64,000 nucleotides of DNA from Tipula vernalis (lineage: Eukaryota > Arthropoda > Insecta > Diptera > Tipulidae): positions 195,295,011 to 195,359,010 of the forward strand of contig OY282560.1 in NCBI GenBank assembly GCA_958295665.1, written 5' to 3'. Below, piece after piece: positions 21,347-62,549 of this stretch. A program made the translations under genes and the position numbers. The notes under the pieces were generated by a model. It saw only the letters and a program-made list of their open reading frames with translations, made no database searches and was not told the origin of the DNA. Position 1 is the stretch's first letter. The number at the start of each line of letters is the position of its first letter.

Positions 21347-22372
21347 TTAATTTGGCGGTAAATTAACAGCTAAGTATTGTTTATGCAATCGTTGTCGACA
21401 AAATTCATAAAACTCTATTTCTTTTGTGAAATTTTTCCGTACAATGTCCTTAACCTCCTCGCTCACTGGTGGCTTGAATGCGTTTCTATTGATTTTATTA
21501 AAACTTTTTATTTCGTCTGGGGAACAAAATTAAAAAATAAATAAAACGGTAAGATTTTAAACACTATAATTTGAAGGTGAACTATTTACCGTAATAAACT
21601 GATGAAGCCCCCTTAAAAAATCTTGGTATATATTTTTCGAATACTGCTAGGGTTGTATTTAAATCTTCGAGTACACCAACAACGGCATATTGACTTTCAA
21701 CTGCATATTTGGCCCGTTCCAAAGCTCCGTCTGTATTGAATGGCCTAAAATATTGTTTTTTATATATATTATCGTTTTATATTTTAAATTATTATAAGTT
21801 CAACCAACTTACGTGCATTCATTAGCATGTCCACAAAAAAATAAACTCTGTCGCCTATGATCACCAATTCCTTCGTGTGTCTCACCCGTTTGATAGGTAC
21901 ATTCACGATCACCGCGCAACACACATGTTTCAAAATCTTTACGCAACCAACGTGGATCGGGTAGTGGCAAATCTGGGAAGGCTTGTTTTCGTTCAACATA
22001 ATACCATGGTGCCCGTATATAATAGTACCAGCTAATCACCCGTTCAATTGGGTCACGTACTAAATTTATGTAGATTGGTGTTGGTAAACCAAATGATGTG
22101 AAATTTGTGTGACACACGTGTTTCACATAGACCGATGGTGTTATCAAATCAGTAACCATTTCGGCCAATTCTAGTTGTTGTGGCGGTGCTAAGCGTATGG
22201 TTTCAACACGTTGTACAGCGTCACGATGAAATGTGAATTTATTGTGTATCGATAGGCGTCTGAGGAGTTCCATAAAAGTTTGGGAACCAACTTTGGGAAC
22301 ACGATTGAAAAATATTAATTCGGTTTGTGCTCGCCGCGTATTATTTAGCTCCCAGAGGCTGAGTGTTTGCAT
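21347..22372 (-). CDS. pip: pipe-like heparan sulfate 2-O-sulfotransferase, three 3' exons
   Basis: Minus strand, three exons: 22372-21813, 21744-21590, 21516-21347; 885 bases, 294 codons plus TAA. The acceptor TTACAG abuts 22372, so the ATG there is probably internal to a longer protein whose upstream exons (membrane anchor) were not found. Donors are AC|GTAAGT and ACG|GTAAAT; acceptors TTTTAG and CCCCAG; reading phase is kept. Domains: FFNRVPKVGSQTF (about 22-34, 5'-phosphosulfate binding loop), INLVRDPIERVISWYYYIR (about 103-121, 3'-phosphate binding), CVLRGDRECTYQTG, RRQSLFFCGH, AVVGVLEDLNTTLAVFEKY (exon 2) and FTKEIEFYEFCRQRL (exon 3). In Drosophila, Pipe is a Golgi sulfotransferase that sets embryonic dorsoventral polarity and uses alternative sulfotransferase cassettes; this could be one such cassette. 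A plain Hs2st orthologue is less likely from the sequence around CTYQTG. Confidence 0.9.
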
Positions 22373-37415: not shown

Positions 37416-38035
37416 TCATAGTTTAAAAAATAACAAAGCCCACCGAATTATTCGATTATTAGTATCTTGTTTTTTTAACGTCAGTTTTAATGAATTACAG
37501 TCAGTTATTAATTTGGCATGAATTCCATGTACATATACATGAACACGTTGCAGAACAATAATGATAGCAAGCGTTTCCAGTTTGTAGGAGTGATAACGTG
37601 CTTCTGTTTCGGTCGTTCGTTTGCTATAAAATGAAACAGGATGGAGATATCCACCTGCGTCCGTATGTAATTCGGTAGCTGCGCTAGAATTATATAAACT
37701 CAAAGTTGGTGACGATGCCAATCTGGACTTTAACAATGAAATGTGTCTGTTCCAACTTTATCAAATCTATAATCAGCACCTTTTTTTAACAAATCGTATA
37801 AGAGTTTAGCTAATATCGAGTAATTTTGTATAAACCATCTAAAGAAGCTTGTTAAACCGATAAAACGGTGAAGTTCGTGAACATTCTTAGGTAATGGATA
37901 ATTCTGAATTGCATAAAGATATCGCGAAGTCGGGCGAATTTCATCTTGACCAATCTCGTAACATACATTTAGTAGATTAAATCTTTAAACAATTCGGATA
38001 CAATATGTCAAACACATTTTTGAGTATTTCAAAAT
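37416..38035 (-). pseudogene. Gypsy RNase H and C-terminal part of reverse transcriptase
   Basis: RNase H: SSAATELHTDAGGYLHPVSF, SKRTTETEARYHSYKLETLA and HAKLITDCNSLKLTL (37736-37416; the DAS motif is DAG). Upstream on the same strand (37990-37740) a frame gives YEIGQDEIRPTSRYLYAIQN, YPLPKNVHELHRFIGLTSFF and LAKLLYDLLKKGADYRF, the RT thumb and connection. The piece ends at 38035 exactly at the target duplication of the inserted inverted-repeat element; the RT resumes at 38898. Confidence 0.82.
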
Positions 38036-38246
38036 TTTACTTTTTTTAATTTTTGTTGAATGTTAATTAATTCTTATAATTTCTAAATATGCTACCGGTC
38101 TTACGACACTTTTAAATGTGTTTTTATTTATTAACACGTAGAAACATATTAGTATTACGAACAGTAAATTCAACGAAAACCGGCTAATAGACAGAATTCT
38201 ATTTATTTAATTTTAACTTAATATGTTCCGAAGATTGTAAGAGAAT

Positions 38247-38323
38247 TCAATCCAGTTTCGAACTGATGAGCTTATGATTATGAAAAAATCAATCCTCTCA
38301 TCAGGCCGCGGCGACTGGACTGA
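38247..38323 (-). ncRNA. Type III hammerhead ribozyme-like motif, left arm of copy 1
   Basis: Minus strand, same sequence as the right arm: stem III strand ending CCAGTC, 8-nt GCCGCGGC, CTGATGAG, a 36-nt stem-loop II, CGAAAC, and the returning stem III strand ACTGGATTGA. All conserved core bases are present. Stem I, GCCGCGGC, is only 2-3 bp with a tiny loop, or it pairs between two molecules because it is palindromic. Confidence 0.65.
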
Positions 38324-38788
38324 CTATACCACAATTTACATTCTATATATACAGAATGTCCTGTGCTTTATATACTAGCGAATCGTACTAATATAGATAA
38401 ATTCAATTACAATTTTTTCTTCTTCATGACAATCACATAAGCTGTGAACGCTAATTTTCCTTTTTTTAATTTTTGTTGAATGTTAATTAATTCTTATAAT
38501 CAACCGTTAATTAATTCTTATAATTTACCGTTCGTAATACTAATATGTTTCTACGTGTTAATAAATAAAAACACATTTAAAAGTGTCGTAAGACCGGTAG
38601 CATATTTAGAAATTATAAGAATTAATTAACATTCAACAAAAATTAAAAAAAGTAAAATTAGCGTTCACAGCTTATGTGATTGTCATGAAGAAGAAAAAAT
38701 TGTAATTGAATTTATCTATATTAGTACGATTCGCTAGTATATAAAGCACACGACATTCTGTATATATAGAATGTAAATTGTGGTATAG

Positions 38789-38865
38789 TCAGTCCAGTCG
38801 CCGCGGCCTGATGAGAGGATTGATTTTTTCATAATCATAAGCTCATCAGTTCGAAACTGGATTGA
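38789..38865 (+). ncRNA. Type III hammerhead ribozyme-like motif, right arm of copy 1
   Basis: Stem III 38789-38798 pairs with 38856-38865 over 10 bp with one G-U. U16.1 and C17 are at 38798-38799 (GUC; predicted cleavage after 38799). Stem I is 38800-38807, CUGAUGA 38808-38814, G10.1 at 38815, C11.1 at 38852, GAAA at 38853-38856. Stem II is weak: GAG/TTC and GAT/ATC around an AG bulge. A competing 8-bp hairpin CTGATGAG/CTCATCAG exists and would hide the core. Activity is an inference. Confidence 0.65.
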
Positions 38866-38897
38866 ATTCTCTTACAATCTTCGGAACATATTAAATT

Positions 38898-39310
38898 TAT
38901 TTCAAAATGTTTTTCTATTGAATCCGTCACCACCTGGATATCATCAAACCGCTCAAATACCGACGGTTCATTACATAGGCCAAAGGGCATTTTGAAATAT
39001 TCATATTGTCTGGCGTAACAAACGTTGTTGTTTCACAAAGTCTTCGTTTATTGGTATGTGCGGTGAAATCCCCTTTGTAGAGCTATTAGTGAAATCACAG
39101 TCATCTATTAATGGTAAAGGAAATCTTTTCATTATTGTTATTTTCTTTACCAACACTATTCTACTGGCAAAGCCACTTGTACTTGGTCGTATTATTCCAC
39201 GGTCAAGTAATTCGTCAATCATATCATCTTTTATTATGATGAGAACTTTGAGTTCGATCTGTCAACCAGTTTGTTTACAGCAGTTGGTTAGGTCAGTCGA
39301 CCTCATTAGT
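38898..39310 (-). pseudogene. Gypsy reverse transcriptase, N-terminal part
   Basis: 39222 downward: MIDELLDRGIIRPSTSGFAS, RIVLVKK, MKRFPLPLIDD (the KDGxxR-RxxVDYRxLN stretch is deleted). Then, frame-shifted, YEYFKMPFGLCNEPSVFERF near 39000-38940 (family: MPFGLxNAPxxFQR). The sequence runs into the target duplication at 38908-38898, and the reading continues beyond the insert at 38035. YxDD is not found. Upstream it is cut off near 39360 by composite element B. Confidence 0.8.
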
Positions 39311-55857: not shown

Positions 55858-56079
55858 CGTGGAAATGTTTTTTTTACTTTATTAATTTTTTGTCGAATGT
55901 TAATTAATTCATGTAATTTCTAATATGCTACCGGTGATTAGACCATTTTAATTGTGTTTTTATTAACACGAGAAGTATATTAGTATTTACGAACAGTAAT
56001 TCAATGAAACCGACTAATAGACAGAATTCTATTTATTTAATTATATGATTTTAATATGTTCCGAAGACTGTAAGAGAAT

Positions 56080-56156
56080 TCAATCCAGTTTCGAACTGAT
56101 TAGCTTATGATTATCAAAAAATCAATCTTCTCATCAGGCCGCGGCGACTGGACTGA
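56080..56156 (-). ncRNA. Type III hammerhead ribozyme-like motif, left arm of copy 2
   Basis: Minus strand: CCAGTC, GCCGCGGC, CTGATGAG, loop II, CGAAAC, and a 10-bp stem III with one G-U. All core bases conserved. Stem II is better than in copy 1: GAAGATT pairs with AATC-AG-TTC (seven pairs with an AG bulge), including A-U at the third pair where copy 1 has G-U. Confidence 0.65.
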
Positions 56157-56403
56157 TTATACCACAATTTCCATTCTATATATACAGAATGTGCTGTGGG
56201 TTAAGTACTAGCGAATCATACTAATTATATGAATAAATTAACATTAAACAAAAAATTAATAAAGTAAAAATTAGCTTACACACAGAGCTGTGTGAATATC
56301 GTGAAGAAGAAAAATTGTAAGAGAGTCATTCTTTATTAGTAAGATTCGCTAGTACTTAACGCACAGCACATTCTGTATATATAGAATGTAAATTGTGGTA
56401 TAA

Positions 56404-56480
56404 TCAGTCCAGTCGCCGCGGCCTAATGAGAAGATTGATTTTTTGATAATCATAAGCTAATCAGTTCGAAACTGGATTGA
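56404..56480 (+). ncRNA. Hammerhead-like motif with a core mutation, right arm of copy 2
   Basis: Same layout, but the catalytic box reads CTAATGAG where the others have CTGATGAG (G5 to A). G5 is an invariant core base, so this arm should be inactive even if the others cleave. Confidence 0.6.
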
Positions 56481-56522
56481 GTTCTCTTACAATCTTGGGA
56501 ACATATTAAAATCGTGGAAATG

Positions 56523-59590: not shown

Positions 59591-62549
59591 TAAAATATTA
59601 TTCGGCACAATATTCCGATTTGCCTAACATAGCAGAGAATGTCCACCGGAAAATTTCCACCACTGACAATCCTTATACACTAATTGAGGAATCACAGTTA
59701 ATTGAGTCACCAATCCTGGACCTTCCCGTCAACTCATTCTGCCTTGGAACTTGGAACGTTCGAGGCCTTAATAACTCCCAGAAACGTGACGCCATTGACA
59801 GAATTTTATTAGAAAATAATGTCCATATATGTAGTGTCTCAGAAACAAATATGCCCTCTGGAACCTGTTCTTCAAAAAATTTCATTTGGCACCTTACAAA
59901 CGATCCCAAGACAAAAAGACGTGGAGTGGGAATTTTGATAAAAAGGCATACCTTCATTCGGACCATGGGAATTCTAAAATATTTTGGTGCCATAATTACT
60001 CTGAACGGCAGAATTGAGAATAGGAGGATCATTGCCATATCCGTTTATGTTCCACCTCACACTTCCCAATACAATCGTCGTCCACAAAGATATTCTCAAA
60101 GTTACTTTCGATAATTGATCGTTGCCCGCAACAGATCGATATCGTCTTATTTGGAGATTTTAATGCTCATCTAAAAGAAGATGATTTATAGTCGAAGAAT
60201 GAGAATGGAGTTTCTCTAGAACTACTAACTCGGTCGACTCAACTTTTTAATCACACCCTTCATGGACGTCGGCGGAAACTTATGACCTGGACTGATGGTC
60301 GATTGTATTCCCAGTTGGACTATATTTTAACCCGTAAAAGCAATCGGGTTATTTATGTTAAGTCGGTGAAAGCCGCCTGTTTTTACCCGCCACTAAGCGA
60401 TCATCGTTTAATATGGATTGTGTGCACCATGCGAAAAGTGCGGTCGCTTGCCTGTCCTACTAATGTAAAGCCAATTCTGATCTCTGCAGGGCCACCTATG
60501 ACCTATTCATTCAAATCTTTGAATCTCTCGTTACTGCAAGGAGTAAAGATACAAAAACAATATTAGTCCGTTTTAGCAAAATCATTTGCACAAGCAGTTT
60601 CAGATATAAATGATTGTAATCTATGGCATTTGATAACTACTTGCATCAAGGAAAGCTCCCAACATTTACTCATCACCAAGACGCCCCTGACACCTAAGCG
60701 TAGGAAAGCATTGGCGCTCTTTAAACAGGCCCAATTTCACAAACATGCTCATCCACAGGAGATGAGCTCTCGATTGCATCTACAAAGTGCCAGGAAACGT
60801 TTGTCTGATGCCTATTCCAGGCACAAATCTTCTGAATGCAAACAATTTTTTAGTCGTTTGACTTACTATTCTCCTCCAGAACGTCTTCGCAGAACTTATT
60901 CATATTTTAAGATTTTCAAACGAGATTGCTCTTCCTTTCGCGGAAATTACATACCAATTTCTTCCTGGGTAAATGAACTTTCTACCATTGAAGGAACCTG
61001 GCCGAGCCTTATAGAGCAACAGGATTACTTTCCTCTAGGTCCTTCTCCAAATAAGGAAGACATTCAGTCAGTCCTGAATTTAATCCGCCCAGGCACTGCC
61101 CCGGGGCCGGATCAAATTCCCATTGAACTATTTAAATATGCACCCAACAATATTGTTGAAGCGCTTCATAAAGTCATAGAAACTGCATGAATAAACAATG
61201 ACCCACCAACCGAGTGGCTGGAGACCATTCAGGTTCCAATTCCTAAGAACAAGAATCCTCGTCAAACCAGTGATTTCTGACGCATAACCCCATGCAATGT
61301 AGGATGCAAGATCTATGCCAAGCTTCTTCTTGAAAAGTTGGATGATCATCTCGAATTACCGCCCTCATACCAAGCTGCGTTTTTGCCCAATCGCTCGACT
61401 GATGATCACATGTTTGTCGTTCGTCGAGTACTGGATGAAGAATGGCGCTCCGGGAATGAAACTTTTACCTTTTCTATTGACTTAGCAAAAGCATTTGACA
61501 CAGTCAATCTAAAGGTCGTAATCGAATGTCTTCAACAATATGTGTCTCATTATCTGGTAAACCGCATCATAAAGGCTTGTTACTGGGAGAAAACCTCCAT
61601 CAAGTGGTTTAACACCTGTACAGCTAGAGTTAAAAAGAACAAAGGAGTAAAACAGGATTGTCCTCTATCACCAAGACTTTTTAATTTCATTTTGAATGAA
61701 GTATTGGTAACTGTTGCCGATCAGTATCCAGAATTATGTTTAAATCAAGGAGGGACATTGCAGCTTCCTTTAATTCTAGCATATGCTGATGACATTTTAA
61801 TTGTCACTCGGGACCCTGCACGCTTAGAACCCATTCTGATTGAGTTGATCGCTGGATTAGAGATTGCCGGACTAACAGTGAATCCAAATAAATGCACTGT
61901 ACTTATTAGAAACCCAGACTCCTTATCCCATCCTAGGCTTAGTAGGCCCCTCACTATCCGGACCCTGTGTCGCCAAGCGCTCGGGGTCACAAATCGAATG
62001 CAATCTTTCATTAAAAGAAATAAAGTATCTTCTAAGATAGCCATCACGATGTAAAATACTGTCATAGTTCCCATGATGATCTATGGATTGAAAACCACCG
62101 CCCTTACACTTGCAAATCGGAAGAGATTAAGGAAATATGAGTTTTTTTTCTTGAGAAGATTACTGGAATTTAGTAAAGATAAACCCACCCTCGGAGCAAG
62201 GAAAATTAAAGAAATTTTGAACAGTAAAACAATAACAAAGCGCATTAAGTTCCAGCGGATCAATTATTGGGGACATGTGTACCGCCGTCCGTCTATCCAT
62301 ATACTCAAGGCTGCTTTCACGTACAGTGCTGGTCCTAGGAAACTAGGACGACCATGTTTTACCTGGCATGATTCGTTACACCAGGATCTAAATTATCTCA
62401 ACAGATCGCATAATGAATGGGAACCTCTCTTATCCTCTCGAGTTGATTTACGGAAAGCAGCTGAAGAGATTTACCAATGCGAAGAATCAGATTCAAGTGA
62501 GCTTCTTGAAGATGAAATTTCGGAAGAAGAGATAGCTAAAGTAATGTAG
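59578..62549 (+). mobile_element. RTE-like LINE, endonuclease and reverse transcriptase with few lesions
   Basis: Endonuclease: NSFCLGTWNVRGLNNSQKRD (59731 on), ICSVSETN, RRGVGILIKR; then a frameshift and IVLFGDFNAHLKEDDL, SQLDYILTRK, YPPLSDHRLI (APE-type, with SDH). RT (60630-61190 and 61338-62054): GTAPGPDQIPIELFKYAPNN, WLETIQVPIPKNKNP, QAAFLPNRSTDDHMFVVRRV, FTFSIDLAKAFDTVN (motif A), GVKQDCPLSPRLFN (family GVRQGCPLSP; G to D), LAYADDILIVTRD (motif C intact). The tail 62073-62549 has INYWGHVYRRPSIHILKAAF and GRPCFTWHDSLHQDL, the C-terminal domain of RTE-type elements. About four stops or shifts in 3 kb, so it is fairly recent but inactive. The exact 5' end is uncertain where it meets the minus-strand LINE. 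Confidence 0.85.

Follow-up and report, generated by a model that had tools for sequence, protein, structure and literature searches.

What is the 862-bp insert at 38036–38897 of the window, the 64,000-nucleotide stretch of Tipula vernalis contig OY282560.1 analyzed here, and what machinery placed it there? Exact copies of TATTTCAAAAT flank it at 38025–38035 and 38898–38908 as the left and right halves of a target site duplication, confirming the limits proposed in a first-pass annotation of this DNA. We consider it very probable that the insert represents a retrozyme-like parasite of Penelope-like elements (PLEs), moved by PLE machinery acting on circular or multimeric RNA from two internal sites, which we call A and B.

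The insert and its family of tandem arrays

The inverted arms of the insert were recovered in alignments of 38206–38500 with 38612–38906 (98%) and of 38033–38177 with 38515–38659 (97%). Each arm holds a hammerhead-like core with a 10-bp stem III, detected by descriptor match, one on the plus strand (38789–38865; predicted cleavage between 38799 and 38800) and one on the minus strand (38323–38247; predicted cleavage between 38313 and 38312). Their positions and strands bear out the earlier description of outward-facing ribozyme-like copies with a type III order of core elements. The insert was also said to split a Gypsy reverse transcriptase. That context is plausible and finds support in an RNase H-like reverse transcriptase domain (Pfam) at 37419–37757 on the minus strand, but the split itself rests on reading the translations, because the pieces beside the insert gave no Pfam family.

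The first-pass annotation took the insert for a single inverted-repeat element, non-autonomous and mobilized by target-primed reverse transcription. The second half of that reading holds, but what was seen as one element consists of two cDNA runs of opposite direction. The left run (38036–38500, minus strand; L068 1019–1486 equals window 38033–38500) starts at RNA site A, at unit phase ~281, and covers ~1.1 units; the right run (38522–38897, plus strand), placed with a 22-unit query, starts at RNA site B, at unit phase ~98, and covers ~0.9 unit. They meet at a centre (38501–38521) that contains a short local duplication and varies between copies. The block order X Y X′ Y′ arises because the two runs, copied in opposite directions from a unit of ~421 nt, tandem or circular, start at different RNA positions.

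A second, older copy (~87%), absent from the first-pass annotation, lies at 55872–56510 and follows the same plan: it runs minus then plus, has ends A and B, and is bounded by a 10-bp duplication, CGTGGAAATG. Its plus-strand core has decayed (CTAATGAG) and its minus-strand core is intact. Elsewhere in the window we noted a Sulfotransfer_2 domain (E 1.6e-13) in an open exon-like stretch at 21812–22372 on the minus strand, a candidate host gene, and a LINE-like RVT_1 reverse transcriptase (E 2.6e-23) at 61338–62051.

Further genomic copies, anticipated earlier, proved numerous. At least 146 matches in the 1.27-Gb assembly (three large contigs, 371–464 Mb) were grouped into at least 38 young sites, the insert included; scoring covered the best candidates, so both figures are minimum counts. 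The repeat unit is 421 bp long, 29% GC and non-coding, with a longest open stretch of 47 aa in circular reading. Like a retrozyme, it is a short (150–450 bp), AT-rich tandem unit without an ORF, and LTR, PBS and PPT are absent as judged by eye. Unit numbering starts with the base that follows CCAGTC, at the predicted cleavage point. Units follow one another head-to-tail at ~420-bp spacing, and most arrays contain a strand switch; mapped with the 22-unit query, an array is either (−)n, centre, (+)m, usually head-to-head, or runs in a single direction. The 38 sites hold 39 arrays (L062 counted as two), 23 two-strand and 16 one-strand, the longest measuring 7609 bp.

The outer (start) ends fall at site A or site B in 60 of 62 cases, within phase windows that together make up 13% of the unit and were set after the data had been seen. 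Site A (phase 272–293, ~279) follows AAATTAAAAAAA, often with extra A, and site B (phase 93–109, ~105) lies in TTAAAATTAAATAAA. A is paired with B in 21 of 23 two-strand arrays; for 21 of the 22 classified pairs, p is ~5e-6 versus even chance, with windows chosen post hoc. The exceptions are L062, with A at both ends of one array, and L061, which combines A with the predicted cleavage point, without B. L062 was first coded B/A, and the final count treats it as two arrays at one site, one of which is A/A. The L033 right end was placed at phase 96, from the duplication, and not at 128, from the 22-unit query. Older copies with both ends in view pair A with B in 6/6. The two ends of a two-strand array differ in unit phase in 22/23, and the phase of the centre differs from copy to copy.

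Two side observations concern these arrays. Long A-runs occur at site A in L037, L054, L067, L033 and L060, both where arrays end and, in L037 (+34 A), within one unit, which suggests slippage or untemplated addition of A by the enzyme. The two arrays of L062 (975–3260) lie within a AATCTTATG-type simple repeat.

The hammerhead-like core

The order GUC, stem I, CUGAUGA, stem II, GAAA is that of a type III hammerhead, and the type III core letters are all present, with A15.1–U16.1, G10.1–C11.1 and stem III; a type I descriptor had no match on either strand of a unit dimer. Our descriptor (U16.1/H17, C3UGAUGA9, G12AAA, paired 10.1–11.1 and a stem III of at least 5 bp) matched three times in the window, at the two cores of the insert and at ~56137 on the minus strand, each time with a 10-bp stem III. 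A first-order Markov control gave 10 matches per 3.84 Mb (both strands, stem III of at least 5 bp). The stems are not regular: stem I consists of the 8 nt GCCGCGGC and the canonical stem II has ~3 bp, where typical type III hammerheads have stems I and II of 6 and 4 bp (PMC7936874). We conclude that the core is type III in order but atypical, and a predicted ribozyme.

Such minimal stems would also suit another reading, possible though doubtful, in which the region serves as a folded landing site beside B for the reverse transcriptase of PLEs and its likeness to a hammerhead is inherited or accidental. All core letters together with a 10-bp stem III would be rare by chance, which counts against it. 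Conservation bears on it from both sides. With one capture pattern, 108 of 111 young cores and 24 of 29 older ones retain the core letters, in line with the conservation expected of a functional core in the first-pass annotation. From the core to site B the units are 96% identical versus 81% elsewhere (one unit per subfamily), and conservation that runs past the core as far as site B is what a landing site would call for. On the other hand, a subfamily difference at stem II 10.3 (G to A opposite U) keeps the pair, and the stretch complementary to the core is altered in two source variants, in both arms of each, with at least one arm keeping the core; neither fits a landing site well. The absence of any match to the core in an Rfam hammerhead search, the check proposed in the first-pass annotation, would agree with one, but the same models also miss the PLE hammerheads of L095, L096 and L100, and because these motifs served as the control, Rfam does not decide on the core. 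A 22-nt core pattern gave 0 matches in viral contigs.

RNA folding had also been suggested earlier as a check. The 10-bp stem III is present, but the active fold (−19.0 kcal/mol) lies 12 kcal/mol above the best fold (−31.2 kcal/mol), in which CUGAUGAG pairs with CUCAUCAG and the core is hidden in a predicted stable hairpin, another feature in keeping with a landing site. Viroids and plant retrozymes block their own core by self-pairing (PMC7229834). The circular unit is predicted to fold at −87.8 kcal/mol, z −4.2 relative to 100 dinucleotide shuffles, which average −65.2 (sd 5.3). In this predicted circular fold, sites A and B are single-stranded beside the same junction, and in a rough 15-row consensus both are mostly unpaired. 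Covariation is uninformative because there is too little divergence: one of 86 consensus pairs changed on both sides, outside the core, in a rough alignment where several rotated units are incomplete or have residual overlap.

The predicted cleavage point coincides with three array termini, one of 62 starts (L061) and two of 62 stops (L052 and L053, the latter ambiguous by 2 nt). They run counter to a simple landing site but are suggestive only, as the two stops are not clearly above chance, and we set them aside as proof of cleavage. At L073 (349–1194), a tandem pair carries a G12-to-C change in both units, which differ elsewhere. This change should kill the hammerhead; either cleavage is dispensable for some insertions or G12C spread afterwards. 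We keep to the reading of the core as a predicted ribozyme, and the element probably spread as a small RNA circle carrying it.

Templates of the multi-unit arrays

Among the 60 complete units that we aligned, six arrays contribute more than one, and in four of these six, with 4 to 16 complete units each, indel markers recur in every complete unit. L059 has a T in 16/16 units (13 minus, 3 plus), present elsewhere in one L060 unit alone, and L049 has an A pair in 5/5 units (2 minus, 3 plus) that is absent from other arrays. On one strand, L056 has an A in 4/4 units, again absent from other arrays, and L066 has an A-run in 5/5 units that is found elsewhere in L062 alone. In L037, A-tracts are lengthened in 10/10 units, to varying length. 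Such sharing looks like the product of a single RNA, circular or multimeric, that served as template on either side of one break.

Substitutions give a different picture. Unit pairs differ by a mean of 0.3 substitutions within arrays versus 0.8 between them, and in L049, L060 and L066 units are on average further from one another than from the closest unit of another array. L060 has two complete units, which disagree at several positions, and L049 (1000–4137) mixes T and G at unit position 23, reading G,G,T,T from one side and G,T,G from the other; these mixtures mean that the template was not one monomeric circle. Thus a single template per array is favoured by the indels but not by the substitutions. 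The mixed units could have arisen from a multimeric template, by template switching or through copying errors. The family is young, given its low divergence.

A circle would not be needed at all if the PLE machinery acted on a linear multimeric transcript of a tandem locus, with a core that is not required for movement. The mixed units of L049 and L060 would follow readily from such a transcript, as would the G12C change shared by both L073 units, and a published PLE used unprocessed RNA in vitro and still inserted hammerhead mutants (PMC11167929). We nevertheless regard this alternative as unlikely, in view of the four arrays that are uniform for their indel markers, on both strands in L059 and L049, and of the longest array, whose 7609 bp would need a very long uniform source. 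The shared markers of the four arrays appear compatible with a circular RNA, and L049 and L060 are not simple cases.

Penelope-like machinery and the proposed pathway

Clean duplications (n = 19) measure 10–13 bp: 11 bp in 13, 12 bp in four, 10 bp in one and 13 bp in one. Their flanks form the symmetric motif TAAAC[N11]GTTTA, with T at −5 in 24/38, A at −3 in 27/38, A at −2 in 23/38 and C at −1 in 19/38 (p = 3e-6 versus an assumed 17%). The 19 motif rows are those with a clean 10–13 bp repeat; the two-strand arrays L033 (a 15-bp repeat with a T run), L048 (11 bp, one mismatch), L061, L062 and L065 were left out. One-directional arrays mostly have no clean duplication. L039 alone represents them in the motif set, L041 (a 10-bp repeat) was left out, and in L034, L051 and L056 the repeats, of 16–25 bp, belong to the element itself. 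The flank motif would place the cut immediately ahead of GTTTA on both strands, with 3′ overhangs of 11 nt, and from the strand order both 3′ ends would have been extended on RNA of one polarity.

The unit, being non-coding, with neither a reverse transcriptase nor a GIY-YIG ORF, can use only the enzyme of another element, and the same genome contains candidates. The GIY-YIG endonuclease domain gave at least 67 matches (best 150 of 1663 candidates scored), several of them close minus/plus pairs, and we fetched 15 PLE loci covering 21 of these. L093 and L096 contain both reverse transcriptase and GIY-YIG domains by Pfam; a search for solved structures of the L093 protein returned 0. L094 (600–4000) has an open 812-aa Penelope-like ORF between inverted terminal repeats with two hammerhead motifs. 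Its protein has no Pfam domain and aligns with the proteins of L093 (30%) and L096 (64%). The hammerhead motif CTGATGATGAGC..CGAAACTAGT is present in 13/15 PLE loci, on both strands near the outer ends in 8; L093 has a variant of it and L105 is without it.

Ten of the 15 PLE loci have two ends with a 10–12 bp duplication, L093, L101, L102, L105 and L107 having no usable end pair. Their flanks show A at −2 in 18/20, A at −3 in 15/20 and C at −1 in 12/20, counts that lean toward the motif because the ambiguous edges of L094 and L104 were read so as to fit AAAC/GTTT. In 8/10, site 1, within the terminal repeat, forms one end, and an extra tail at the opposite end reaches site 2, which in L094 is at the ORF start. 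The two misses are L097, with both ends beyond site 2, and L099, with one end ~10 nt short of site 1; for both we took the repeat adjoining the element ends and not the longest repeat, and both still have two different ends.

A PLE sharing the X/Y blocks had been envisaged, and none was found in the 15 fetched loci. The sole match is 23 nt at the edge of L103, where positions 1–23 are identical to unit phase 248–270; this stretch lies ~785 bp outside the L103 PLE and apparently represents the A end of another copy nearby. Direct likeness between A or B and the PLE start sites is weak, with one of eight comparisons notable: site B shares 15 identical nt with site 1 of the L094/L095 family, a match equalled in 6/400 shuffles. 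The start sites are ~170 nt apart in the element versus roughly 40–55 nt in PLEs of this genome. What the element and these PLEs have in common, in a comparison of these two groups, is the duplication length, the AAAC/GTTT flanks and the rule of one start of each kind, and these shared features make PLE machinery the most likely agent of its mobilization.

Two other sources of inverted copies fare far worse. LINE-type target-primed reverse transcription with twin priming is very improbable. LINE-1 also yields inverted cDNA halves, and a LINE-like reverse transcriptase is present in the window. The duplication length and AAAC[N11]GTTT flanks, however, match PLEs, the retroelements with which we compared them, and two internal start sites are a PLE trait (PMC11167929). 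The inverted arms and the 11-bp duplication could also come from a DNA transposon or foldback element, with its long inverted repeats and 9–11 bp duplications, but this is scarcely credible and was rejected on end asymmetry (end phases differ in 22/23 two-strand arrays), tandem units of variable number, a variable centre, variable A-runs at the A end and one-directional copies.

From the arrays, end sites, A/B pairing, shared markers, duplication length, target motif and PLE rules, all of them read in sequence, we infer a pathway with a circle, cleavage, a dimer and a PLE protein as agent. Genomic tandem copies would be transcribed, and the hammerhead-like core would cut the transcript into 421-nt units that become circles. 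The PLE reverse transcriptase/GIY-YIG endonuclease, probably as a dimer, would make a staggered cut, offset by 11 nt, through both strands of a TAAAC[N11]GTTTA-like site, and both 3′ ends would be extended along one shared RNA, beginning at internal site A for one end and at internal site B for the other. Each run could pass the unit many times because the template would be circular or multimeric, and the two runs would meet at a variable point, giving (−)n(+)m arrays within an 11-bp duplication. We lean modestly toward a more specific version, twin-primed rolling-circle reverse transcription, in which one PLE complex on a single circle would extend both overhangs at once from A and B, the circle being made by an unusual type III hammerhead whose palindromic stem I may act as a dimer or with the PLE protein. 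If this is true, head-to-head multimer arrays would be written in one step. That the palindromic stem I could permit a dimer is speculation; a dimer has been proposed for PLE hammerheads (PMC7761336), and a lizard PLE hammerhead cut only with the PLE protein present (PMC11167929).

Published PLEs offer the closest parallel for the insertion step. The lizard PLE protein (PAc, PMC11167929) cuts and extends both strands and uses two internal start sites that match the tail, and bdelloid (Adineta) Pen families are head-to-head, with duplications of 8–10 bp in named cases and none in others (PMC3846280); AT-rich targets and a hammerhead near the end are further likenesses between these elements and ours. 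PLEs differ from it in that they encode reverse transcriptase and endonuclease and carry minimal type I hammerheads, whereas our element codes for nothing, and published PLE start sites are 30–40 nt apart as against ~170 nt. Metazoan non-LTR retrozymes (Cervera and de la Pena 2020, PMC7229834) resemble the element in their tandem, AT-rich, non-coding units, each a few hundred bp long and containing one hammerhead, in having no LTR and duplications >4 bp, and in a PLE being proposed as partner. Their hammerhead is type I, whereas the core here has type III order, and the main text of that report, in which the word "inverted" does not occur, makes no mention of head-to-head arrays with two fixed starts. 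The hammerheads of schistosome W-elements are likewise type I (PMC8490949).

Plant LTR retrozymes and Avsunviroidae have in common with the element the type III order and the blocking of the core by a stretch complementary to it (PMC7229834), but the element lacks LTR, PBS and PPT, as judged by eye, and makes 11-bp rather than 4-bp duplications. Type III hammerheads are known in dipteran and termite genomes (PMC7936874), and those described there, including in deltavirus-like RNAs, are likewise type III motifs of animal genomes with atypical helices; they have longer helices I and II and a pseudoknot, whereas stem I here is minimal, and in termite genomes they are isolated motifs rather than a mobile unit. 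Among titles of the retrozyme, hammerhead and Penelope literature, with subscription journals mostly outside the set, none concerned such arrays or a match of duplications and targets between retrozymes and Penelope elements.

The kinship in lifestyle with retrozymes and PLEs that the first-pass annotation had suggested is thus supported, and the element probably works like a retrozyme. We call it retrozyme-like because it lacks the type I hammerhead, a defining feature of animal retrozymes. The partner of animal retrozymes has not been established, although PLEs are strong candidates; their repeats offered no motif from which to deduce it (PMC7761336, PMC7229834). This genome supplies a link to the partner in the duplication length, target motif and start rule common to the element and the PLEs, and so points to the long-sought machine that moves such ribozyme elements. 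The arrays would also document in a genome the two-sided reverse transcription that one Penelope protein carries out in vitro (PMC11167929), and the pathway becomes directly testable.
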